Assembly: GCF_001625215.2 (NCBI RefSeq)
Contig: NC_030387.2
Span: forward strand, 33,379,606-33,443,605
Direction of reading: 5' to 3'
DNA: 64,000 bases
Origin: Daucus carota subsp. sativus
Taxonomy: Eukaryota > Streptophyta > Magnoliopsida > Apiales > Apiaceae
The first letter of the stretch is position 1; each line of letters opens with the position of its first letter. The notes under the pieces were generated by a model. The model made no database searches. It was not told the origin of the DNA and saw nothing but the letters and a program-made list of their open reading frames with translations. This document shows, in pieces, positions 23,315 to 63,881 of this stretch. A program made the translations under genes and the position numbers.

Positions 23315-23454
23315 TTAGCTATCATTTTGTCGCTTTTTGGTGTCTCCTATGCCCTCTACAACTACCCTGATGAAACACTGGCTTATTTTCAGCTTGCTAA
23401 TGGATATTACTATCTGGGCATTAATATTCTCAGCTTGAAGTACTGAATACTTCA

Positions 23455-23496
23455 AGGACTACTAATTCACCCAAATTTGTCAAGTCCTGTGTTTTG
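23455..23496 (+). pseudogene. Truncated copy of the F-box gene 3' end
   Basis: These 42 bases match the last 13 codons plus stop of the F-box gene at 30242-30283 (GLLIHPNLSSPVF). Homology starts abruptly at 23455 and has no upstream F-box or kelch sequence. It is the left edge of the 1.5 kb duplication. Confidence 0.9.
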
Positions 23497-25021
23497 AAAA
23501 CAAGAGATGGTGTACATAATATGGGTTCTCTTCAAATCATTTTCATGTGTAAAAGTCATTTGTCAATCTTGGCAGATATAGATAGAAATTTCTTTGAATG
23601 CCTAGCTTATATTGTAGAGTACTTTTTTTTGTATCAAGTATGACTTAAAAGCACCAAAATTACTGAGTATTTATGTACTATATAAATACATGGTCCATTT
23701 TGACACTCCTGGTTGAAGAAGAAGGTGAAAAATTTACTATGACCGACCAGTAATCGTAACCAATTACATACATGGCTAAATGCAATAAGCTAAATTATCC
23801 CAAAGTCAACCTTAAACTAACATGTGAAAGAACCTGAGGCTAATATCAAGTCTGAGAAGCATGAATGAGCAAATTATGTTAACAAACATAAGAAAAAAGA
23901 GGATTCTGAAAAAGATTGTCCAGAAAATCGTGGTGTGTTAAACATGCTTGCTAGATTGCTTGAGGATGATTTGCTATCTAAATCAGAAACAAATAACCAA
24001 AGACTCATATTCAGATACAAAATACAAATCATAAACTCAAAATCATACAGTACTGAATACCAAGTATAGAAGGTGTACAGAACTCTCAAGTCATAACCAT
24101 GATAAGCTAAGGAATATGATTATCAAGTTGGGTACTAGTGCATCAGTTTACCATGTTTCGAAAGTAATTACAAATGTAGAAGTTGGACCAAGAAAAAGAA
24201 AGTGAGAAAAGGTTGATCCGTGGGTGAGTATAATTGAGGGTGAAGTTGTAGTCGAGTAGAACAATACCTACTGATTGGATGTTGCATATGCAAAGCTGGC
24301 TTTCCAGAAAAACAGGTTCGGCAGTTCCAGATCCTCCAACTTACAGGTAAGATCACCTTGACCAGTTCTCGCATCAGGAATGTTGGGCTCTTAGGAATGA
24401 CCGAATGAGTCTTCCATATGCCTTATCACATAATGAACCTGATATCTTCAACATCAGAGAATAGGTAACGGTATAGATAAGTTTCAGCTCAATAAAGACG
24501 CGAAATTAAAGATCAGATCATATCCGTACACTGGAGGCTCTTACTTTACAACAGGAAGCAAGATGCAGAATGAAAGATCAGATCCTATCCATAAACTTGG
24601 AGGCTTTTACTTTATTATATGTGGTCTCATCATTGCTCATAATCAGTATTCAGTAGCAGCTACTATTGTGATGTAAATGATTGGCTGATAACAACGGATG
24701 CATATGTGTCTAGTCCACCATTATTTGCACTGATGTAATCCTAATAAGTTCACACATTCCACAATTTGCAACTTAAATTCTGTAACAGATCCTAGTTCAC
24801 AATACATTAGTTCTTTCAACTTTTCATACAGTCCCTCTATGCAGCCCAAATGGTTATAGCTTTTCAACCTATTCTTATAAGTCATTTTTAAGAAGTACAT
24901 AGTTCAAAGTAATATGATTGCAAAAAATATCTGCTATTGAAATTTGTGATATCCATGGATATAAACATATTATAGCTCAATCATAATACAAGCTTTTCCT
25001 AGCAGGATGCAAAAACATCAA
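23455..25021. repeat. Segmental duplication, copy 1 (partner 30241-31760)
   Basis: About 1.57 kb in direct orientation to 30241-31760, highly similar along its length. It starts inside the last F-box codons and ends at GCAAAAACATCAA, after which the two loci differ. Copy 1 has about 50 extra bases near 23645-23690. The shared block also contains a partly open stretch (PENRGVLNMLARLLEDDLLSK in copy 2), too broken to call a gene. Confidence 0.9.
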
Positions 25022-25458
25022 GATGTTAATATAAAATGTATGTAAATCCTCTAACTGATGATGAAGAACTTATATAAGGATGAATGTTCTAATGGAAGAA
25101 AATGTTTTAGAACCACTTACAGGAATGCAAGATAGAGATATATTTGCAGTTGTATATATTAACATATATAGCATATATTAACATATATAGCATTATCATT
25201 TTATACATTGAATTCACTTTGTAGATGTTTCGCCCAATTCATGGAAACGAGCAGGACAGTAGGTAAAAGAAGGTTTGATTCTGTAATTACAGGACTGCTA
25301 TATAATAAGAACTAGTTATGAAACTCAATAGTTTTTTCTTTTATTGCAAATGGATTATGTGAATGTTGAGGCACACTGTAAAAGATTCTTTCTGTATTCT
25401 ATACACATATAGTTGCTGGTTGAGCAGACTTGATTGCAGACCTGGCTTTCTGTACTCT

Positions 25459-29209: not shown

Positions 29210-30283
29210 ATGTGGAGGAACCTTCCCTCTGATCTCTTAGCTAACATCTTCTCCATCCTCTCCCCAGACTCCTTAGCTCGTGCCATGACGGTGTGCAGGG
29301 AGTGGCACAAGTGCGCCAAGTGCACCCCCTCCCGGCTGCGCCACCCTGCCTGGTTGCTTGCTCTGCCTTGCCACACCCGTAGCAGCCTCTTCTGTTATGT
29401 TCACAACCCAACTCTCCAAACTTGGCACATGCTCTCTTTAAGCTTTGTTCCAACCCCATCTAAAGCGATCGCAACAATCAATGGTTTGGTGCTCTTTAAG
29501 TCCACCACCATAGCCCTTCAATTGTCCGTTTGCAACCCCTTTACTCGCCAATTCAAGTACCTTCCGCTACTCTGCATTGCTCGTACCAACCCCGCCATTG
29601 GCGTCGTAGAAGTTGGCTCCAATCACTTCATGATCTATGTGGCGGGCGGGATGTCGGATGCATCAAAAGCTGGTGGTGCGACGTATGAGCCTACGGTTGA
29701 AATGTATGATTCACAATTCGATACATGGGAAATCATCGGAACAATGCCGGTTGAAATTGCAGTAAGGTTGACAGTTTGGAGCCCAAATGAGAGTGTGTAC
29801 TCAAATGGAGTCTTGTACTGGATCACTTCTGCCAGGGCTTATAGCATAATGGGCTTTCAAGTTCAGACAAACAGGTGGAGAGAATTGAGTGTGCCTATGG
29901 GTGATACACTTGAATTTGCATCATTGATCCCAAGAAGTGGTAAGTTGACACTCGTTGGGGGCAACGTAGACGCCTGGATATGGGAGCTAGGGGTGGAGGA
30001 TGATTGGTGCTTGGTCGAAAAAATGGGATTGGACCTGAAGACGAGATTTTTAGGGGGAAAGGAAAGTTGGGGATGTACAAAATGTGTAGGGGTTGAGGGG
30101 GAAATGTGTTTGTATAAAGAGTCTGGCTTAGATATGTTGGCTTGGAGAAAAGTTGTGGGGGAATGTAGTAAGCGGGAATGGTGTTGGATCAAGGGTTGCA
30201 GTACCATCAAAGATAAGCAAGTGCCAAAATTTACAACCAAAGGACTACTAATTCACCCAAATTTGTCAAGTCCTGTGTTTTGA
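29210..30283 (+). CDS. F-box/kelch-like protein, single exon
   Basis: An intronless frame of 357 residues. Residues 1-40 form an F-box (MWRNLPSDLLANIFSILSPD, then SLARAMTVCREWHKCA), the SKP1-binding motif of SCF ubiquitin ligases. The rest resembles a kelch/FBA-type substrate domain: IATINGLVLFKS, VEMYDSQFDTWEIIGTMP, NGVLYWITS and FQVQTNRWRELSVPM are typical blades. It probably selects proteins for ubiquitination; the target is unknown. The start is the first ATG, directly at the F-box. The final 13 codons and the 3' flank are duplicated at 23455. Its 3' end is convergent with PSF1. Confidence 0.88.
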   Translation: MWRNLPSDLLANIFSILSPDSLARAMTVCREWHKCAKCTPSRLRHPAWLLALPCHTRSSLFCYVHNPTLQTWHMLSLSFVPTPSKAIATINGLVLFKSTTIALQLSVCNPFTRQFKYLPLLCIARTNPAIGVVEVGSNHFMIYVAGGMSDASKAGGATYEPTVEMYDSQFDTWEIIGTMPVEIAVRLTVWSPNESVYSNGVLYWITSARAYSIMGFQVQTNRWRELSVPMGDTLEFASLIPRSGKLTLVGGNVDAWIWELGVEDDWCLVEKMGLDLKTRFLGGKESWGCTKCVGVEGEMCLYKESGLDMLAWRKVVGECSKREWCWIKGCSTIKDKQVPKFTTKGLLIHPNLSSPVF

Positions 30284-31760
30284 AAACAAGAGATGGTGTA
30301 CATAATATGGGTTCTCTTTAAATCATTTTCATGTGTAAAAGTCATTTGTCAATCTTGGCAGATAAGAGATAGAAATTTATTTGAATGCCTAGCTTATATT
30401 GTAGACTACTTGTTTTGTATCAAATATGATGGTCCATTTTGACACTCCTGGTTGAAGAAGAAGGTGAAAAAATTACTGTGACCAACCAGTAATCGTAACC
30501 AATTACATACATAGCTAAATGCAATAAGCTGGGTTATCCCGAAGTCAACCTTAAACTAACATGTGAAAGAACCTGAGGCTAATATCAAGTCTGAGAAGCA
30601 TGAATCAGCAAATTATCATGTCAACAAATATAAGAAAAAAGAGGATTTTGAAAAAGATTGTCCAGAAAATCGTGGTGTGTTAAACATGCTTGCTAGATTG
30701 CTTGAGGATGATTTGCTATCTAAATCAGAAACAAAAAACCAAAGACTCGTATTCAGATACAAAATACAAATCATAAATTCAAAATCATACAGTACTGAAA
30801 CTAAGTATAGAAGGTGTACAGAACACTCAAGTCATAACCATCATGATAAGCCAAGGAATATGATCATCAAGTTGGGTACTAGTGCATCAGTTTACCATGT
30901 TTCGAAAGTAATTACAAATGTAGAAGTTGGACCAAGAAAAAGAAAGTGAGAAAAGGTTGATCCGTGGGTGAGTATAATTGAGGGTGAAGTTGTAGTCGAG
31001 TAGAACAATACCTACTGCTTGGATGTTGCATATGCAAAGCTAGCTTTCCAGAAAAACAGGTTCTGCAGTTCCAGATCCTCCAACTTACAGGTAAGACCAC
31101 CTTGACCAGTTCTCAATCAGGAATGTTGGGCTTTTAGAAATGAGTCTTCCATATGCCTTATCACATGATTAACCTGATATCTTCAACATCAGAGAATAGG
31201 TAACGGTATAGATAAGTTTCAGCTCAATAAAGACGCAGAATGAAAGATCAGATCGTATCCGTACACTGGAGGCTCTTACTTTACAACAGGAAGCAAGATG
31301 CAGAATGAAAGATCAGATCCTATCCATACACTTGGAGGCTTTTACTTTATTATATGTGTTCTCATCATTGCTCATAATCAGTATTCAGTAGCAGCTACTA
31401 TTGTGGTGTAAACGATTGGCTGATAACAACAGATGCATATGATTCTAGTCTACCATTATTTGCACTGATGTAATCCTAATAAGTTCACACATTCCACAAT
31501 TTGCAACTTAAATTCTGTCACAGATCCTAGTTCACAATTTACATTAGTTCTTTCAACTTTTCGTACAGTCCCTCTATGCAGCCAAAATGGTTATAGCTTT
31601 TCAACCTATTTTTATAAGCCATTTTTTAAAAGTACATAGTTCAAATTAATACGATTACAAAAAAGATCTGCTATTAAAATTTGTGATATCCATGGATATA
31701 AACATATTATAGCTCAATCATAATACAAGTTTTTCCTAGCAGGATGCAAAAACATCAAGG
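30241..31760. repeat. Segmental duplication, copy 2 (partner 23455-25021)
   Basis: This copy is continuous with the intact F-box gene, which suggests it is the source and copy 1 the derivative. It includes the F-box stop, its likely 3' UTR, and a 128-codon open frame at 30563-30949 that is disrupted in copy 1 and resembles no family I know. Confidence 0.88.
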
Positions 31761-32121
31761 TGAACCACTCTGTCCTAGTTGAATTGCAATAAACCTGCTA
31801 CAAACAATCTTTTACATCACAATCCACATAACATATATGCATTCCAGGCTTCCAGCTGTAATAATGAAAAGAGCATTACTCAATTAGAGTTTCTTTAAGT
31901 GCAAATTCAAAGTACAAATTACATGTTTCTCGATACAGGCCTATATATCTGCTACTAGAATGGTAAAATTACATGTATAACATTAAGACTGTAAAACTAA
32001 AGATCCTACATATATCTGAATTCTTTTGGAGTCGAGACTAATTATAGAATACCTCAAGCTACTGCTTTATGAAACTCATAAAAAGAAATTAATACCATCA
32101 TGCTACTATAAGAGAACTTGT

Positions 32122-39615: not shown

Positions 39616-40799
39616 ACGTCTCTCTTTTTTTATACATTTTAAAAATAATAATTTTTAATATAAATAAATACCACATTAACTACTTTCTTCGAATTTATTT
39701 ATTTCATAGTAATATAAAACGCTATTATACACATTATTTTTTTCTTCGTTATCTCAAATTTATTATTAAATATAAATTGGTCCAATTACTTAACACCTAA
39801 TTTTATTCATTTTTAAATATTTTCTTGATTTCCTTAACCACCATCTGATTATTCTGATATATATAACCGGGTGGACGGGTGAAGTAGTTTTTAACCGGCA
39901 GTGAGACTTCGAGATCAACTCCACAAGTTCAAAAGTAAGCTCCAGACATTTAATCGAATTTGTTATCAATATTGATGTTACTAGATAGTAGATTCCGTTG
40001 AAACCCTTGAATTCGAAAGTAATCGTAATATTGTCACATAGCAACGAGCCAGTCCCCCGTCAAAATAATGCACCACCAAAAGAGAAACCCACATGTTAAT
40101 GAATTGTCACGCAATTATCATTCCAATAATTTGTTCACCCACCGCAAAGTCCACTCATTTCGTTCTACCATGATGATTAATAATTAGTACTTTTTTTTAT
40201 AAGAAGAACTGTATATAATTAATTTTACCAGTTTTGTATTAGTTGACATATTGCGACTTTTTTTATTCTATTAATCTAACCTCAGTGGCCACGATTACAT
40301 GAAACATGTCCAGCTTCCTGGGACACTTATTCTTCATTCGAGGGGTACGCCATTTTGGTTTACTTTATTTTCTGATTTTGAACACACTTTTTTATATATT
40401 GATTTATAATTAAAATTTTCATTTATAAAATATAATTTTATAAACAAAATGTGCTGATCAAAATCTTAATTTATGAAAATTAAATTAACAAGAATAAAAT
40501 AAAGAGAAGTAAATAACTTTCTTACATGGTAGTGTGAGAAAATTTTAAGTAAAGTTTCGTTGCATAATATATTTAGTATATTTATTTTAAATAAATATAG
40601 TAAACTATATCGAATTGTGTGTAGTTGAATGAATCAAGTACTAAGAATCATAAAATAAACTACTTTATCTACAAAATTACAAATTATTTGGAAAAAGTTG
40701 AGAAATCTGTATATAAAAAAGATTTGTAAAAAGAAGGGATAGATACCAATAATGCAGGCTATCTAAATTGGTAGCGTGAAGAACCGATACTGAAAAATA
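39616..40799. other. AT-rich intergenic DNA
   Basis: About 1.2 kb between the hAT element and the MITE pair. No gene or element with two ends was found. Confidence 0.5.
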
Positions 40800-41034
40800 C
40801 TCCCTCCATTCCAAAATAATAGTCGCTTTGACTTTGTACACGTATTTTGAGGTGCAAAAAAAACATACTTCTAAATGTTATTTTTGAAATTTTCTTTTTC
40901 TGAATAAAAATAGAGATGTTAAACTTTTATTCGGAAAAAGAAAATTTCAAAAATAATGTATAGAAGTATGTTTTTTTTACATCTCAAAATACGTGCACAA
41001 AGTCAAAGTGACTATTATTTTGAAATGGAGGGAG
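40800..41034. mobile_element. Stowaway-like MITE A, 235 bp
   Basis: Ends CTCCCTCCATTCCAAAATAA and TTATTTTGAAATGGAGGGAG with flanking TA on both sides. The element is nearly palindromic over its full length. It pairs with MITE B in inverted orientation. Confidence 0.92.
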
Positions 41035-41124
41035 TAGGTGGTTTGTTTGCACCGCCCCAGAGTAAAAACAAGTCCAGATTTAATACAGCAACTGCTACCG
41101 GAAGTCAAGTCTGTCAGTCTCATA

Positions 41125-41359
41125 CTCCCTCCATTCCAAAATAATAATCACTTTGACTTTGTGCACGTATTTTGAGATGTAAAAAAAACATACTTCTATA
41201 CATTATTTTTGAAATTTTCTTTTTCCGAATAAAAGTTTAACATCTCTATTTTTATTCAGAAAAAGAAAATTTCAAAAATAACATTTAGAAGTATGTTTTT
41301 TTTGCACCTCAAAATACGTGTACAAAGTCAAAGCCACTATTATTTTGGAACTGAGGGAG
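41125..41359. mobile_element. Stowaway-like MITE B, inverted copy of MITE A
   Basis: Flanked by TA (41123-41124 and 41360-41361). Its sequence is nearly the reverse complement of MITE A; only a few substitutions separate them. The two are 90 bp apart. Confidence 0.92.
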
Positions 41360-42062
41360 TAACTTACTAAACCTCGTAAGTCAACAACGGTAGACATTAT
41401 TGTCAGAGACACATTCGACTCCTTCATTTTTTATAATAATTAAATTCTTAAAAATAAAATTTATTTAAGTGCAAGAGCATCTAAAAAATTATAAATACTC
41501 AAGATTAACGGGCGAAAGATTATAAGGGAAGATTTATCAATGCAATACATGATTTTATAATCAGAAATAGGATAATCGGTGGAGCTGATTATAAATTAGT
41601 TAAATAATCAGAGATTAATCAAAAAGACTAATTAGATTAAAGTTAAGATACTTAATAATATTATAATAAAATTGTTTGATTTATTATAATAATCTAATAT
41701 TTTAAAAAGTCTATAATAATCAATCGGATTTTAAATCAAAAAGACATCTCGCAAGAGATAAATCAAAAATTAATCATAAATAAGAAAAATAAATCAAAAT
41801 AAATAAATCACCCGCAATCATAACCTAATGCCCTTTATCTCACCACCGATATAACCTATGTTGACAGCACTCTTTAATCCTGGCCGTATAAGTACAAACA
41901 TCATATATCGCTCCCCTCCTCTCGAACATTACAGAATTAAATGAATCTCAAAATTTAAATTGCCTCCACTGCAATAAGCCTCCACTAGTCTAATAATTAT
42001 ACATACAACTATCTGTATCTATATCTACATCCTCTTCAACAGCTCGTTTTGAATCAAATCAA
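41360..42062. promoter_or_regulatory. Upstream region of the MASS-type gene
   Basis: AT-rich DNA with many GATTAAT-type motifs, then a more C-rich 5' UTR-like stretch just before the ATG. A TATA-like CGTATAAGTAC is near 41884. The element is tentative. Confidence 0.4.
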
Positions 42063-53064: not shown

Positions 53065-55033
53065 CTAACGAACGCCAAGCTTGGAGCATCCAGTCGCAAG
53101 GGGTAAATCCAAATTCTCTACAGTCCTAAAAGTTCTTGGGACCATCTTATCAACATAGAGAGTTCCATCTAGGTGATCACATTCATGCTGTAATATGCGG
53201 GCCTGCCAGCCTGATGCATCCACCTTGATGGGCTGGCCGTCTCGATCAAGACCAGTAACTTCAATCTCTAGGTGTCGCTCCACCACAGCTCTGAATCCAT
53301 CAACACTGCAAAGGAAGAAAGGAAGAGGTTGCCCATAGATAAGAGACAAGAAATAGATTATCCATTACAATATTGATGGTGTTCTAAGAAGCAAATTTTA
53401 AATATATGTAGAACTAACACTTATAGCATCTCTATAAGCTTTCGTCTAATCACACAACAATTGACATGATCAACTGATCATTCGATATCACAAAATAAAT
53501 ATAGCTTGTGAATCTTCAACCCAGCAAAAAACCCACTAAAGTATAGGCAGTATTTGTATGGTTCAAAAATTAGTCCCTTAATCGAGAGTCATTCACAAAT
53601 ATTCCTTACCCGTCTATAAAATAGATAAAATAGATGGGGAGTTTATCAGCTTCAGGTAACAACAAAGATTATACCCGCCCTTCACATATGAAAAAAAGGA
53701 AATTAAAATAATTATAAAAAGAAAGTAAAGCATCCTTTGTAGCGCAAAATCCCAATAGTAGCTTAGCTATGTTAAGGAATACACATGCAAAAACAGAACA
53801 GATACAAGCAACATATTTGTGAAGATCATTTATTATTGACAAAAAAATTTACTGTCAAAACCACTTGTTTCTAACCTTAAGCAACCTTCAAAAAACAGTG
53901 CACTTTTGTTGCTTTTCTTTCTAAGCTCTGGGTTGATAATAACCTATATTCAAACGAGGAAATATGACCCAATGTAACATAATTGCATCAAATATTTAAA
54001 TTTGACACTTATGCATACCAAAAGATCAAAAGGTCTTCGATCCTGTTCCTTGATCTCTTCCTTGGGTGCATAACCAATATACTCTTTAGTGTCTTCCAAA
54101 ACAACAATCTGTCAGAAATACAAAGGATCAACCTGCCATTAAACGTTAGGATCACATATAGCACATCAAACTTTCTCAACTGAATTTCCTTACCACCAAC
54201 TAATACTTCACCCTCTTTTTCCTTTGATTTTAAGCGTACTAAGCTACCTTCCACCAATTTAAACCGACAACATTTCAAAGATTGAACTGCCAAACATAGA
54301 TTATCATACTCAAGCCCAGTAAAACTAGCTTGATTTTGCACCACAATACATGTCTTTATATTAAAATCACACACATTTTCGCATACTATAAATTTTATGA
54401 CATATTTACGACTCTCTGATAGAATTTCTCATTTCAAAACTTCCATACAATCTCACATAAAACAATCACCCGTAAACCGACAAATATAAACAGCAATTCA
54501 TAGCATTGTAAAAACATATCAGGCTTCAAAACTTAGCAAAAGCACAGTGCTTAAAGTATTTAAATTTCCGCAATCGACATCCCGAAAATATAGGGAAAGA
54601 ACAAAACCTTTAAGGGAATGCCAATCTGAGGAGCAGCAAGACCAACCCCAGGAGCCTTCCTCATAACTTTGACCATATCATCAATAATCTTCTGGATCCT
54701 ATCCGACCCGATTTCTTCAACAGAAACTTCCCGGGCCGGTTCATGAAGCACCGGGTCACCCGCTTTAACTATATCCGGCATATCGTCCTTCTTATCTTTT
54801 AAACCCAAAAACCAACCCGCCCGAGCCACTGAAGAAGAAGAAGAGTAGCTCTCTTGGCGTCTTATCCCGGGTATTAATGCAACCGGTCTCGGGTTTTTTA
54901 GCGGGTTACGTAATGGGTTCCGGGTATGGGCAAGTGGGTTGACCCGAAGTGACCTGGTAGAGACTGTCTTGAAGCATATTCCGGTAACTGTTGACGGGAA
55001 GAGACGGTGGGTGAGCCTTTGGATACACTCCAT
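53065..55033 (-). CDS. PDF1A: Peptide deformylase 1A, organellar
   Basis: Four exons on the minus strand: 54608-55033, 54019-54108, 53876-53943, 53065-53305; 825 nt, 274 residues, GT-AG introns. All three deformylase motifs are intact: GVGLAAPQ (129-136), EGCLS (191-195, split by intron 3) and HECDH (235-239), giving the metal ligands C193, H235, H239 and the catalytic E236. The first 75 or so residues are rich in Arg, Ser and Pro with almost no acids, as expected for a mitochondrial targeting sequence. The enzyme removes the formyl group from N-terminal fMet of proteins made in organelles. The blocks [20 protein letters not shown] and [19 protein letters not shown] are specific to the plant 1A type. 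High certainty. Confidence 0.95.
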
Positions 55034-56341
55034 TTCGCCTTGGGATTTTCAATTGGACTCAAGTTTGTGTAAAATGTATGGTACTGAGAACCAGGCCTGC
55101 ATATTGATTGGGCTTTTGACTGGATTGTCTCAGTTATGGGCTTTGTTCGACATTGGACTTTAACCCAATGTCTTGGTGAAACCTATTGTTGATGCAAATT
55201 TATGAATGGACCAAAATGAAATGGATTAAAATTTAAATTAATTGAATTATAAGAATATGTTTTAAAGTATTAAAGTTTCGTCTCAATTAACTGAATTATA
55301 AGAATATGTTTTTATGATATATAATATGACCGGTAATTATAATTGTGGAATCGGGACCGACTAATCATCCAAATAATCAAAATACTCTACTGGTTCGATT
55401 TCATGGATCAGATTAATTATAATATGTCTTTAACATTAATATAATAAATTTAGTAAATTAATAGTATTGTATAATTTTAATATATTTGATAAATATGTCA
55501 ATTAATCATTTCATCACTAACTCCACTAAGTAATTCCGATTTCCATATTTTACAAGAACTCGTTCGTGGCGATAAAAATAAACTACTCCTACAAAATTGA
55601 CTTTAGACCAAAAATGACACTGTAGTAATAGATTATTTGACATTTTTGAAAGAAAAAAAATAATAGTTTGACTTTGTGATAGTTTAAAAATAAAGATAGG
55701 AATATTGAGGTAAAGTGTGGGGGGCCGGGGGCTGTAACTTAAAACTAGCGTTACGGGGGTGCATGTGAGGGGGATGGGTTTGCATTAAACCAAACTTCAC
55801 CCGCACGTTCTGACTTTACACTACAACTTTCTTTACAGGTTCGCAGAATCACATTGATCAACTCAAACTCCACACTTATCTTCCCCGATGGCAGAGGGCA
55901 ATCATCTGTTTATTCATGTGCGTATAATACAGATACAATTAAGAAATTAAATAGAATGGTCCGTACATATTTGAAATTCGCTTGTAAATTCATGTTTGCA
56001 GGAACTTGAAAGGATGGCAATTGATCATAAGTTTATATCTTTCTTCTAGTCTTAAGCTGTTCAGGGCGTTAGCTGTGGCCTGTGAGCCTGGTATGAGCTG
56101 TGCCTGTGAACGTTGTTATTGATAAAATATAATTGGAATATAATATGATTCTAGAAGTTCTCTTTCCAATAATCCAGATTTTTGCTCTAAAAAATAATTC
56201 AGATTTTTAATAAAATTGATCCTTTAATATTGCATTGGAGCTTAGAATTAAGAATGCAAAATTATTATGTATGAACATGAATACTAATGTTAAAATACAA
56301 TATAATAATAAGCTTGTTGAAACTCGAGAGATCTGATCGCT
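55034..56341. other. PDF1A upstream region with a possible mini-gene
   Basis: About 1.3 kb. Bases 55320-55560 resemble a decayed hAT-like MITE (CCGATTTCCATATTTTACAAG near the right), without a clear left end. At 55888 an ATG in a more GC-rich setting opens MAEGNHLFIH, then a GT-AG intron (55918-56001) and ELERMAIDHKFISFF with stop at 56049; 25 residues in total. This may be the 5' end of a broken gene or chance. Confidence 0.35.
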
Positions 56342-56344
56342 CAA

Positions 56345-59300
56345 CACTACACCATATGTGGCCTATTGTAACAGCCAAAAAAATGTGAATAAAGGCCAGA
56401 AAGTGTTGCTGAAAGTGAAAAAAAGGGCTATGGTAACACTTTTTCATCAAACAGGATCGTAACTAAAATCGGTGCTACCATAGGGGTCTAAGGTAACACT
56501 TTATCAATTTTCGGTAACACCTGAAAAAGTGTAAGCATAGAACCTCTATGCCTACACTTTTGTTGTTTTGATAACACTAAATGAACTGTAACTATAGACT
56601 TATGGTAACAGCACTATGGTATTTGTTACATCACCTATGGTGTAACCATAAGGCCTATGGTGACACTAGGTAAGCCTTTTCTACCTTTACCAACATTTTT
56701 TAAATATTTACCTACAGTTTTTAGATATTTACCAACAAAGAGATATAAACCATTTACATCAATAGCTACACTTTACAGGACTCTTTACCAACATATTTTG
56801 AAGGCAAAAAAAGGCAATATAACATTTGAAAATAGCACTTCCCATTTCAAAGTTTACCAAACATTCAACAACAAACACAATCCAAGAACCAAAACAATGG
56901 TCCAAGCCTATCAACCACATCAAGATCATGAGTACTAGTGCATGAAATTGAAATTAGCTAGGTACAATATAAAACTCCAATTAAAATTTGAAATTAAAAT
57001 CCGGGCTTGCTTCTTTGTCAAGATCTGCTTGGCACATTCTCCCTAATAGCCTTTGGACACGGTATGACAGAAGACAAGCTGCACCTCTTTGCTTATTGAT
57101 CGGCCCATGTCCATAAAAACCTTCAGAATTAAATTAAAAAGAATGAGAATTTGCTGAGATGACAGACCATATAACAAGAAAATAAAAAAGATATTCAAGT
57201 TGAGCATCAAATGCTTCTAGAGCACCCTACCTTAAGGATATATTTGATACAAAACTGAAATGGAGTTCATAATTTATTTTTAATTACTATGAACAAAGTG
57301 TCAAAATTCTTATACAATCAAACAACAAAAAAATTTTCAGAGTCTATCATGTCCCCCAAATTGGCTAACATTTTCAATCTTTCTGTTGAGTAAAAAGTAC
57401 AATATAGATCAGCTTAAGTGTCTTACTGTGAAACATCTTTAAGAACAATTTTTTATACAATATCAATTATATAGAAACTATTTTATATAATACCAATTAT
57501 ATAAACACTATTTTAATATTGGTTTAGTATTTTAAAGTTTCTTCTCGTCGCTTCTTTTGGAGCCACATTTTTAATTTTCTTGTCATTGCTCACATGAAGC
57601 TCCAAGAAACCAGTTTTGTTCTGGTTAATGCATCCAGTAATGTTAGTTTTGTTTTTGATTTCTTGATATTGGGTCTACTTATTACAACACTGTGATCAGA
57701 GTGATTTTGAAACTGTGATCAGAGTGGTCTGCTGCTAAATGGTTCATATACAAATTCCATAAGTTAACACAGCAATATATAATTAAATATGGGAGCAACT
57801 TACCCAGATAATTTTGTCACTGTTTGATGAGTCTGAGTCCTTTCTGGTCACAGCACTTTGCAGTGCCTGGTATTGTTACTGCTAGAGGCCCTTGAGACAG
57901 CAAACTTCCGTTGAACACAGCAGTCCACGCTAAAAAAGCACAAAACAAGAATATATTCAAATGTGTGGAAAAATTCATTTAGCTCCACTTCCAGTAGTAT
58001 TCAGGTAGTATTACATAACAACTATATAAACTTTCTCAAAGATGAGACAGACCTCAAGTCCCTGATTACATTTCTCTTAAACTCATTAGTTACTTAATTT
58101 TATACCAACCTCTGGTGTAGAAATAGATGCATTTTCAAAAGGCAGTGGCGCATACACTACCAGAACATTTACACCATTCACATAGAGGTCAAAATTGACC
58201 TGAAGATAGCAAAAAACAAATATTATGACCTGAACAGTGAACCAAATCATGGGATCTTTAAATGAATGTACTAGTACCATATAATACCTATAATTGAGAA
58301 GAATGTCATATAATCCATGTACATTTTTGTTCAATCTAATTGCCAGCAAAGATTATGGGTTGTTATCTTCATCAGATAAAGAACTCAGACGACGAGTCTG
58401 CATTTATATTAGCAGAAGCAAAACCAATAAAAACAAGGAGAAACAATATTGAATTTTTAACTATTACAACCAGTGCAGAGAATCACCCTGCTTTTTGTAC
58501 AAACTGAGGCAGGTAGTCAAATATATAACCTCCAAGGTCACACACACAATGCAACTGATGTAAAGTGCATTGTGGACTTCACATTTCCAAATCCAAAAAT
58601 ATGTGGGAATAAAATAATAACATATAAACGCACAGATTTTGACAGTAGCAGGCAAAAACGAGATCTGTATATTGTAACTAGTAAATTTACCAAATTGTTA
58701 TGCATTCTCCATTAGAGGCCATTATAACATCAAACTTCACATTAATATTAATGGTATAGAGAAATCACAGAGAAATTAAGGTATATATACATATGTTAAT
58801 ATATGGGATCATGTTTCTGATGTGAAGCATGAGGGTCTGTCTATCTGACATGCTGACAGATAATCTAGGCCACATCATCGAATAGCCCAAAAAGAAATTC
58901 ATTGTTATCATACCACTGAAAAGATTATCAACCAAGCATCTCAAATTCCAGATCCAAAGTGATACTAGATTGAAAAAGGACTGTGGTTATATACCCAAAC
59001 AAGTAAATGTAGTGATGATATTGATAGCTGCGGCAAATCCAATATCCGCAAATGTAGCCATCTTGATCTGGTTCTTATAAATAAACTCAGAATTTTCCTG
59101 TTGCTAATAATAATCAATTGTCATGAACAAAGTAGAAAAGCCGCAAACAATATCAACTAGTGAGACAGCCTAGAAAGTACAAGAAAATTTAAAGGCTAAA
59201 ATTTCCCTATTTGTGAACCTTAATTTTCTTATCCAGAACATACAGATCATGCTTCAATTGAATCAATTCCCATACTAAATCAAAAGTGTATTAAATACCA

Positions 59301-60498
59301 GAAAGTAATATACACCAACCCAATTTACACCTTCAATTGATTAAACCATGTAAATTAAAGGCGTCTCCAATTTCGAATCACAAATAGCAAGATCACCTTA
59401 AAAAAGCTTCCAACATCACTCAAGTCATTTTTTTTCAAAAGGCACTGAGGTCCTATAATTACAGATTGGATCAGGCAATTTTTATACTCTCCAAAATGGC
59501 AAAAAAGCAAAACTAGAATAAATATAAAAGCAGCTAAAAGTTATGAAATTCAACACAACTTGACAATACACAGATGCAGTCATAACAGTATATTAAATTA
59601 ATGGTCAGCCTTAATTACAATAATGTATATCACTGCAGCAAGAAATCACAGAGAAATCAAGCAACAAAAATTACATAAGAAAAACAAACCTGAAATCGCC
59701 AATTGAAAGTAGGAACAGAGTTATATATGATGACCCCCAACACCCGATTGAAGTCTGATATCCAAGTTGCAACATGAAACCCTAAATCACCTGAAAAACC
59801 CCCAAATTAGCGATATATTACTAAAATTAAAGGATTAATCCCATGTGAAAAGCCCTAATTCCAAGCTTCGAGAAAAAATTGTTAATCACCTGAAAAATAA
59901 GATTTGAAGTCATAATTACTACAAAACCAATGAAATAGTTAAAATATATACCCATCAGAAGAAACTCTTGAAGAACCCACGAATTTGCTCATCCGATTGG
60001 CGAGTGAGTCTTGAGTGCGCGAGTGGGTGATTTTGTTGTGAGATGAGAGAGGTGAGTGAAACGAAAGAGGTGAGTTTGAATAAGTTTGAGTTTGAGGCAG
60101 GTTCGAGAGGTGAGGTGAGGGAGCTGGGTTTGGGTTTGAGGTAAGGTGAACTGAGTGAAATGAGAGAGGAGAGCTTGTGTTTTGTTTTTAGTTTTAGTGT
60201 GTTTTTTTCCCCAACATTTTTGTTTTTAATTATTTTCAATCTCCCGCGCTTGTTTTCATTTCAGCTGCTCAAACAATTCATTTTTTAGTTACATTTTTTT
60301 CAAAACCAACGGTAACACCAAATAAAATGTTACCATAGATGTCACATTATATCTACGATTACACTAAAGTTTACTTATGGTTACACTAAAAAACGGTGTA
60401 AGCATATGTTGATAAAATTCATTTTAAAGCACCTATGGTAACATTTTATCTTGTAACATCAAAATTATTTGTTACAATAGGCCACTTATGATGTAGTG
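56345..60498. mobile_element. Non-autonomous CACTA (En/Spm-type) transposon, 4154 bp
   Basis: Terminal inverted repeats of about 28 bp: left CACTACACCATATGTGGCC, right (reverse complement) CACTACATCATAAGTGGCC, both continuing TATTGTAAC. Target duplications are CAA at 56342-56344 and 60499-60501. The first and last few hundred bases are full of short GGTAACACT/CTATGGTAAC motifs in both orientations, the usual subterminal transposase-binding repeats. No TNPA/TNPD-like coding sequence is present. The interior, on the minus strand, looks like host-gene exons and introns (see the OSCA-like fragment), so this appears to be a gene-capturing copy. Confidence 0.9.
58995..59097 (-). pseudogene. Captured start-codon exon of an OSCA/CSC1-like channel gene
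   Basis: Inside the CACTA element. A CAACAG acceptor at 59098-59099 leads into a short 5' UTR and ATG at 59061, then MATFADIGFAAAINIITTF, which matches the N-terminus of plant OSCA/CSC1-like stress-gated cation channels (typically MATL.DIGV.AAINI). The exon ends at a GTATAT donor. No later OSCA exon follows. Further exon-like pieces on the same strand lie at about 59705-59795, 58110-58200 (VNFDLYVNGVNVLVVYAPLP) and 57810-57930, but their reading frames do not join. Only the start exon could be identified. Confidence 0.55.
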
Positions 60499-60501
60499 CA
60501 A

Positions 60502-61074: not shown

Positions 61075-61112
61075 TCGAATTGTTTTCCTCCAAATAAACC
61101 ACAACTCAAAAA

Positions 61113-61442
61113 ATGAAGAGCTCAATATCTCATCATCATTTCTACACTAACATTAGCAATAAGGTAATCAAAGAAGATGAAGAAGAAGGTATCTATGTTC
61201 TCAAAGATGAAGGCTTCGAAGAGAAGATCACTGGCAATGCAACTGGCACCAGATTATCCCGAGGCGTGGCAACGACGGAGAAGGTGGCGGCGAAAAATGC
61301 AGAAAAGCCGGGTGATAAAAAGAAAGTGGAAGATATAAATGAAAGCGCAGAGGCGTTTATTAAGAAATTCAGGAAGCAGCTGGTGATACAGAGGCTGGAG
61401 TCTATTGAAAATTATGAGAACATGCTTGCTAGAGGAACTTGA
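61113..61442 (+). CDS. DUF761 small protein (cotton-fibre-protein type)
   Basis: Single exon, 109 residues. The C-terminal motif SAEAFIKKFRKQLVIQRLES followed by IENYENMLARG is the DUF761 signature of plant cotton-fibre-expressed-type proteins. The N-terminal part is polar and probably disordered (IKEDEEEGIYVLKDEGF, then a Lys/Ala-rich stretch). There is no signal peptide or membrane segment. The family is plant-specific and of unknown biochemical function. Start is the first ATG after a good TATA box. Confidence 0.88.
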   Translation: MKSSISHHHFYTNISNKVIKEDEEEGIYVLKDEGFEEKITGNATGTRLSRGVATTEKVAAKNAEKPGDKKKVEDINESAEAFIKKFRKQLVIQRLESIENYENMLARGT

Positions 61443-62823: not shown

Positions 62824-62973
62824 ACAGTGACTGAAGAAAGAAGAACACAAATAAGTTTTTGAGTAAATTATACCGTAGTGGCCAGATGAATAAATTTTAC
62901 AGTGACTGAAGAAAGAAGAACACAAATAAGTTTTTGAGTAAATTATACCGTAGTGGCCAGATGAATAAATTTT
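62824..62973. repeat. 75-bp perfect tandem duplication
   Basis: Two adjacent copies of a 75-base unit beginning ACAGTGACTGAAGAAAGAAG and ending AATAAATTTT. The copies appear identical, so the event is recent or conserved by conversion. Confidence 0.93.
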
Positions 62974-63269
62974 TTGTGCTTTGTTATTGGCCGATGTTGC
63001 AAATTCTATATCTCCGTGGCTGCAACTTACAGTTTTAAACTCCGTCGGTTGATATTGGTCCTGTTTGATAAATAACTGATTGATTAACATTTTATACACA
63101 AACCAAAACTGCTAATCCAAAAAACTCCTCAAAGTAGCTTTTTCCAAAATTAGCTTTTTGGATCCAAACCTCTATTTCAATCCGCTAACTACCAAACACT
63201 AATATTAGTTTATTTTATTGGTCAAACCTCTAAAACACCTAAAACCTCTAATTTTACCTCAAACTTCTA

Positions 63270-63503
63270 CTCCCTCCGTCCCATTTTAACTGCTTTTGAC
63301 TTTATACACGTATTTTAATACGTTAAAAAAATCATATCTAAACATAGTTATTCTTTATAAAATTTATATCAAATTAAAGTTTAGAATCTTAACTTTTATT
63401 TGATATAAGAATTGAACTTTTTTATTGAGTGTAGGTATTATTTTTTTACGCCTCAATATACGCGTTAAAAAGTCAAACATCAGTTAAAATGGGACAGAGG
63501 GAG
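63270..63503. mobile_element. Stowaway-like MITE, 234 bp
   Basis: Ends CTCCCTCCGTCCCATTTTAA and TTAAAATGGGACAGAGGGAG, flanking TA on both sides. It shares the TTTGACTTTATACACGTATTTT type interior with the MITE pair at 40800-41359, so it is the same broad family. Confidence 0.92.
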
Positions 63504-63881
63504 TAACTTTCAAATAGGGTCATTGTAAATTATACTATATTTGAACTTAGAGCCATTATAGTGCAACAATATTTGCAACTTCGGCTATTTGTTTTTGACT
63601 TCTTTCTCAGACACTCTGATCACCTTAGTTTGTTTCTAATTTCTATTTCACTTATTTACTTTATCTGTCAAACATGTAAAGATCGGTAAGCCATTCCACC
63701 TCTATCTCCCTCCATCTGCAAATTGTCTTTGAGAATTAAGATAACGGCTATAGCTAATATGGTTGAAGCAAGTCACCTTTTTGGTTAGCTAAATTTAGCT
63801 AAATATTATTTTATTATAATTTAACTAATGATTATAGCTAATGTGGTTAGACATGCTCTTGTCTCTTGCTTATTTTGTAGA

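Follow-up and report, generated by a model that had tools for sequence, protein, structure and literature searches.

A probable Pack-CACTA transposon of carrot with an interior patchwork of host-gene fragments

Gene-carrying CACTA transposons are already known. Tgm-Express1, described from the soybean wp allele (PMC1947982), is a 5.7-kb CACTA element located in the intron of an expressed gene; it contains intron and exon pieces of five unrelated host genes, and chimeric transcripts of it have been cloned. In Arabidopsis, rice, and maize, elements of the Pack-TYPE class, Pack-CACTA among them, possess terminal inverted repeats (TIRs) and a target site duplication (TSD), carry no transposase, match coding genes, and have relatives that share their ends (PMC8903248). 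Subterminal repeats are likewise present in Jozin and other CACTA elements of Chenopodium, which carry short fragments of captured genes (PMC8978399). With regard to the route of capture, descriptions of Pack-TYPE elements, Pack-CACTA included, invoke the fusion of adjacent insertions (PMC8903248, PMC13317346), a 2026 review considers that unlinked genes may be captured by a route yet to be discovered (PMC13317346), and for the Pack-TIRs of animals filler capture with repair and template switching has been argued (PMC8277862).

The element studied here lies in a 64,000-nucleotide window of the carrot genome (C7:33379606-33443605), which is the whole stretch of DNA that was analyzed. We assign a probability of about 0.93 to the reading that it is a non-autonomous Pack-CACTA transposon, with the ends of a mobile family and a patchwork of host fragments that may have entered as filler; it is a clear new example of the gene-carrying CACTA transposons. 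Like Tgm-Express1, it carries pieces of unrelated host genes, introns as well as exons, between CACTA ends, in this case from three named or probable genes and two unnamed loci, whereas it is 4.15 kb in length and intergenic. Its TSD is 3 bp, in contrast to the 5 nt given for the rice and maize CACTA set (PMC8903248), and its TIRs begin with CACTACA instead of the CACTAGT of the Chenopodium elements, in which the captured fragments (Neprosin, AP2) are located upstream of the conserved domain in the element's coding sequence (PMC8978399). It presumably shares with the animal Pack-TIRs the capture of filler with short microhomology and template switching, although those are animal elements and most of their captures came from nearby DNA of the same chromosome (PMC8277862). 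It differs from the Pack-CACTA elements of PMC8903248 in that several pieces match four contigs with no inner element ends, and the tandem-insertion route is therefore not indicated. A literature search by TIR-like letters found, among the papers listed (15 of 110), none evidently on the carrot element by title; no paper was found that combined CACTA, transduplication, and subterminal repeats, or that contained both OSCA and a CACTA transposon.

Ends, relatives and genomic setting

The carrot element displays the features of the CACTA (En/Spm) superfamily, i.e., TIRs starting with CACTA, a 3-bp TSD, and, at both ends, subterminal repeats of the kind (10-20 bp, both orientations) that marks the superfamily (Table 1). 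Its first letters are CACTACACCATATG, with a matching inverted repeat at the other end, and the two arms, both starting with CACTAC, agree at 27 of 29 positions. When the CACTA...TAGTG pairs spaced 0.2-15 kb apart were compared over the whole window (568 pairs), this pair was the best (27/29, with TSD), the runner-up reaching 18/29 and having no TSD. The subterminal 16-mer CTATGGTAACACTTTT gave 15 matches in the window at up to 4 mismatches: six within the left 356 bp of the element, two within the right 209 bp, none in the 3.6-kb interior, and seven in the other 59.8 kb, the last with 3-4 mismatches apiece. A Pfam scan was carried out on 77 of the 84 open reading frames (ORFs) of at least 30 aa, the seven omitted being partly or wholly outside the element; no transposase family was detected in it, and 12 weak matches (E 0.015-0.48) were to unrelated families. 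An earlier note on this DNA had claimed full TIRs, CAA target duplications, subterminal repeats, and the absence of a transposase, all of which were borne out by these comparisons. No second copy of the element was found in the window by blastn. The TIR pattern gave a single match in genome contigs, to a bacterial MAG (L001), which was judged to be a chance match, and none in viral contigs.

Table 1. Positions of the carrot element and its parts in the window
Feature	Position	Strand	Remarks
Whole non-autonomous CACTA element	56345..60498	no strand	4154 bp
TSD CAA, left copy	56342..56344		
TSD CAA, right copy	60499..60501		
Left TIR	56345..56373	+	29 nt
Right TIR	60470..60498	-	29 nt
Left subterminal repeats	56428..56670		6 motif matches
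Right subterminal repeats	60323..60448		2 motif matches
Older or family-level insert	57184..57435	no strand	81-83% like C7:7076866
Captured piece, probable pyroglutamyl-peptidase gene	57733..57893	-	C2:26712370-26712566 plus 24 bp further on, same exon
Captured piece, unnamed locus	57893..58014	no strand	C5:37800757-37800917
Captured DONSON piece	58037..58759	-	donor C4:45368027-45368747
DONSON exon b	58110..58199	-	internal frame shift; splice sites retained
DONSON exon a	58288..58397	-	in-frame stop; limits from donor alignment
21-bp direct repeat, left copy	58760..58780	+	adjoins OSCA piece
Captured OSCA/CSC1 piece	58792..59624	-	donor C7:32261031-32262080
Remaining OSCA coding exon	58995..59061	-	53 + 14 bases around deletion
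21-bp direct repeat, right copy	59641..59661	+	20/21 identical; adjoins OSCA piece
Exon-like segment, strong splice sites	59690..59790	-	inside recurring stretch 59656-59844
CT-rich leader-like segment	59952..60187	-	read as CACTA-family sequence, not captured

The genome searched (441 Mb in 11 contigs) contains many relatives that have ends in common with the element. Counts of relatives are lower bounds, since 40 of the 93 candidates were scored and 50 matches listed. At least 11 relatives (L014 to L024) were extracted with both ends, and identical 3-bp TSDs flank all 11 of them; L025 to L027, in which one end is missing or the layout is abnormal, were kept outside this TSD count. The TIRs of the 11 show 26-29 matches in 29, and their ends are 78-95% identical to those of the element. 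By its ends, which is a Pack-TYPE criterion, the carrot element is not a singleton and clusters with the 11 relatives. Their interiors differ apart from three close pairs, namely L017/L018 (98.9% identity throughout, duplications GGT vs TAT), L020/L022 (97.7% identity, duplications CAT vs ATA), and L023/L024 (94-97% identity, in pieces); because these pairs share interiors, family members have moved together with them. L020-L022 have stretches in common with L021, which contains a 258-aa ORF with a Transpos_assoc domain (PF13963, E 1.6e-17) that probably ties the family to En/Spm, whose transposase is of the Transposase_21 type. In the orientation of the element this ORF runs from the right end to the left, as do the exon-like features of the element.

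L017 includes pieces of a thiolase gene and of other loci, and the donor exons of the former match Thiolase_C at E 1.2e-10 and 3.4e-12. Gene capture as a habit of the family rests on two kinds of element, the one described here and L017/L018. The OSCA and DONSON cargo is single-copy, and the genome search found the same cargo in no second insertion; the packFinder definition does not require that cargo be shared by more than one insertion.

The element is flanked by an ORF with a peptide-deformylase domain (54560-55048, minus strand) and by a DUF761 ORF (61098-61442, plus strand), and is located about 0.6 kb upstream of the first ATG of the latter. It is intergenic and outside the introns of recognized genes. 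The genes encountered, with OSCA, DUF761, and F-box/Kelch among them, are consistent with a plant.

Host-gene pieces and family sequence in the interior

Fragments of the interior have matches at four or more places, spread over four contigs (C7, C4, C5, and C2), and the donors are still in place. One match is to a gene of the OSCA/CSC1 type on the minus strand of the element's own chromosome, 1.17 Mb distant, with 706 of 798 aligned bases identical and 35 element bases unpaired. Three exon ORFs of this donor match RSN1_TM (2.1e-19 and 1.8e-9), PHM7_cyt (1.5e-13), and RSN1_7TM (1e-8), and an Arabidopsis OSCA protein aligns blockwise along the donor and on into the adjoining locus. The captured piece holds sequence that precedes the start codon, the 53 initial coding bases, the final 14 bases of that exon, and the beginning of the next intron; 247 bp of this first coding exon are missing, and as 247 is not a multiple of three, the OSCA frame is lost. 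The splice donor of the exon is retained (TTGG|GT at 58995/58994) and scores low (4.1, upper tail 0.16), the same site being present in the donor gene. The AG that the element has ahead of the OSCA start is absent from the donor. A 23-residue OSCA-like peptide of the element found OSCA1 as its sole match in PDB by phmmer (E 0.87), which by E-value is no better than the chance-level matches of other element peptides (E 0.94, 1.6, and 8.5); a score test with this single query favored OSCA, the score of 59 comparing with maxima of 37 in 300 shuffles and 36 in 12 shuffles, but the query had been picked post hoc. Further phmmer searches of PDB with element peptides gave nothing.

The DONSON piece comprises two exons and the intervening intron, with 642 of 717 aligned bases identical to the donor. 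The joined exons of the donor gene match Xenopus DONSON (8q6o) at E 3e-11, and the match falls in donor exons adjoining the captured ones. In the genome search the OSCA and DONSON pieces gave matches at the element and the donors only, apart from a 62-bp match to an OSCA paralogue on C8.

The piece from C2 is 94-96% identical to its donor, and 167 bp of the donor exon are missing from it. The joined exons of the C2 donor match Peptidase_C15 at E 0.016, under the curated Pfam cut-off, and the gene is for that reason named as probable only; its single exons gave no domain match. The C5 piece is 88-92% identical to its donor and 39 bp shorter internally. The searches yielded no gene name for the C5 donor or for the locus at C7:7076866. 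The insert similar to the latter is common to siblings L014 and L027 up to 57336, and it is therefore older or family sequence. Identities of 88-96% to the donors allow that the true source may have been a since-lost paralogue.

Transduplication of host genes, as proposed in the earlier note, is thus upheld by matches to the OSCA gene (C7), the DONSON gene (C4), the probable pyroglutamyl-peptidase gene (C2), and the unnamed C5 locus: when the interior was compared with the genome, host-gene donors were found and not CACTA copies alone. As in other Pack-TYPE elements, there is no coding for a transposase and the interior matches host coding genes elsewhere.

The right-hand part of the interior is of a different kind. 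The leader-like segment is present in L015 (95% over 59873-60498) and partly in L023, L024, and L014; five other loci contain the stretch 59656-59844 again, at 71-76%, and two of them show a related CACTA TIR, CACTACACCATAAAAGGG, within 0.6-0.9 kb. From these recurrences, both 59952-60187 and 59656-59844 are read as putative CACTA leader sequence. The left part of the element to about 57336 is likewise common to some siblings, and no separate match to 57336-59624 was found in the 11 relatives (E 1e-5). These observations bear on the very improbable alternative that the element arose from an autonomous CACTA transposon by deletion alone (dSpm type), in which case its interior would consist of its own transposition genes with introns. 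The right-end leader and the left part are indeed family sequence, and the transposase-associated ORF of L021 has the same direction; but 58037-59624 has its matches in the OSCA and DONSON genes and in none of the siblings, and no transposase-type domain occurs among the 77 ORFs. Refuted for 58037-59624, this alternative remains true for both ends.

The interior had also been thought to read as plant gene exons with splice sites on one strand, which holds with one correction. The six minus-strand exon-like segments have a G+C content of 0.35-0.48 and the five stretches between them 0.20-0.33, and T exceeds A on the minus strand in four of these five stretches. The OSCA, DONSON, and C2 gene pieces agree with the claim, but the two 'exons' at the right end are CACTA-related. 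Strong acceptors (score of 8 or more) are commoner on the minus strand than on the plus strand (6 vs 3), but strong donors are not (4 vs 7), so that splice scores alone are only suggestive; it was the genome matches that settled the reading of much of the interior as host-gene DNA. Pfam gave no match for ten element peptides or for three exon peptides, and Rfam gave none; protein searches with the element's own peptides did not reach significance. Some candidate exons were rejected: 'exons 1 and 2' as host exons, being CACTA-relative sequence; 'exon 5' (57804-57929), which spans the point where the C5 and C2 pieces meet; and 'exon 6' (57000-57120), which is inside the left part common to some siblings. 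A 70-codon frame joined by eye from exons 1 and 2 and the OSCA exon had a sole search match at chance level, and it was given no weight because the acceptor it needs is absent from the OSCA donor.

Assembly of the cargo

The C5 and C2 pieces abut with no gap, 22 bases separate the C5 and DONSON pieces, and 32 bases separate the DONSON and OSCA pieces, one copy of the direct repeat accounting for 21 of these 32. The two copies that flank the OSCA piece are the sole direct 21-mer pair in the element with at most one mismatch, and the closest sequence to the 21-bp repeat within the donor loci of the OSCA and DONSON pieces differs from it at 7 positions. At the deletions relative to the donors, the C2 piece shows an overlap of 4 bp and the C5 piece one of 2 bp, and the thiolase-gene piece of L017 has deletion overlaps of 5 and 4 bp; no microhomology is visible at the OSCA deletion in the donor alignment. 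No element-end motif was found between the captured pieces at up to 4 mismatches; former inner ends could have been lost.

This arrangement suggests, as a somewhat favored route, that the cargo was acquired by repair and filler synthesis over fusion of two neighboring elements: broken element DNA would have been repaired from ectopic templates, and template switching during the repair would have copied gene fragments in as filler. It appears doubtful that host DNA was enclosed between two adjacent elements which then transposed as a unit, according to the local-hopping model for Arabidopsis Pack-CACTA. Descriptions of that process exist for Pack-TYPE elements, Pack-CACTA among them (PMC8903248, PMC13317346), and the OSCA donor and the element are on one chromosome, yet the pieces match four contigs and abut with no element-end motifs between them. 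A single enclosure cannot yield a four-contig patchwork, although successive rounds could, had they left no ends behind.

Possible transcription and significance

Any RNA of the element's own would run on the minus strand from a start near 60.2 kb, inside the leader, and all three gene pieces of known sense (OSCA, DONSON, and C2) read with that leader. Since every such piece is damaged, they are pseudo-exons. If transcribed, the captured pseudo-exons could become part of spliced chimeric RNAs that are truncated or do not code for protein, or could feed siRNA production; the element itself would be mobile only if transposase were supplied by another element.

A stronger proposal, under which the element serves as an exon trap that is expressed and, through chimeric spliced RNA or siRNA, affects its donor genes, we consider unlikely. 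The common sense of the three pieces is consistent with it, as are the retained splice sites of DONSON exon b, the retained splice donor of the OSCA exon, and the chimeric transcripts shown for Tgm-Express1 (PMC1947982). On the other hand, the OSCA exon is frameshifted, DONSON exon a contains a stop, agreement of three out of three pieces in sense has a probability of 1 in 8 by chance, and the element is not within an intron of a recognized gene. Equally improbable is its extension to the whole family as a repeated exon trap, in which template switching during repair would gather pieces from unlinked donors, those that persist would have the sense of the leader and retain their splice sites, and spliced chimeric RNA would modulate the donors. 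In the present element these donors would be a gene for an osmosensing channel and one that acts at the replication fork.

As the donors are present in the same assembly, a multi-gene CACTA element can here be followed at single-base resolution through its deletions and junctions. The pieces from four contigs together with the 21-bp duplication bracket make the Pack-CACTA element described here a good test case for gene acquisition by CACTA transposons, in which the question of filler during repair versus fusion of neighbors can be addressed. If it is transcribed, the element would naturally supply RNA against two genes of carrot, one encoding an OSCA channel and the other DONSON.

Repeats in the window

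Inspection of the sequence showed that both fold-back repeats have the termini TACTCCCTCC...GGGAGTA, ends that we take to resemble those of Stowaway-type MITEs. The flanks of the direct repeat, when inspected, did not have the look of LTR ends, and the start of its second copy is overlapped by an F-box/Kelch ORF.

Coordinates of window repeats and of related loci in the same genome
Feature	Location	Observation
Direct repeat (1.58 kb), copy 1	window 23454-25025	92% identity between copies
Direct repeat, copy 2	window 30240-31762	
F-box/Kelch ORF	window 29198-30283	
Fold-back repeat	window 40798-41361	self-complementarity about 88%
Fold-back repeat	window 63268-63505	self-complementarity about 75%
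Tandem duplication	window 62824-62973	75-bp unit, perfect
Related-family TIR	L032, position 911	
Related-family TIR	L034, position 670	
L017	C3:33327722-33331320	98.9% identical to L018
L018	C6:3941913-3945509	
L021	C9:1318981-1324609	5.6 kb
Thiolase gene	C2:40068289-40069311	

Relatives of the CACTA element

The TIR CACTACACCATAAAAGGG of a related CACTA family was found in loci L032 and L034, close to their copies of the main-element region 59656-59844. The relative L021 contains a Transpos_assoc ORF and appears to be a partial or decayed family member bearing transposase.

Mobility of captured DNA

L017 and L018 are two copies of the same related element with different target duplications, and the cargo of L017 comprises pieces matching a thiolase gene together with pieces of other loci; captured DNA has thus moved within the CACTA family of the main element.
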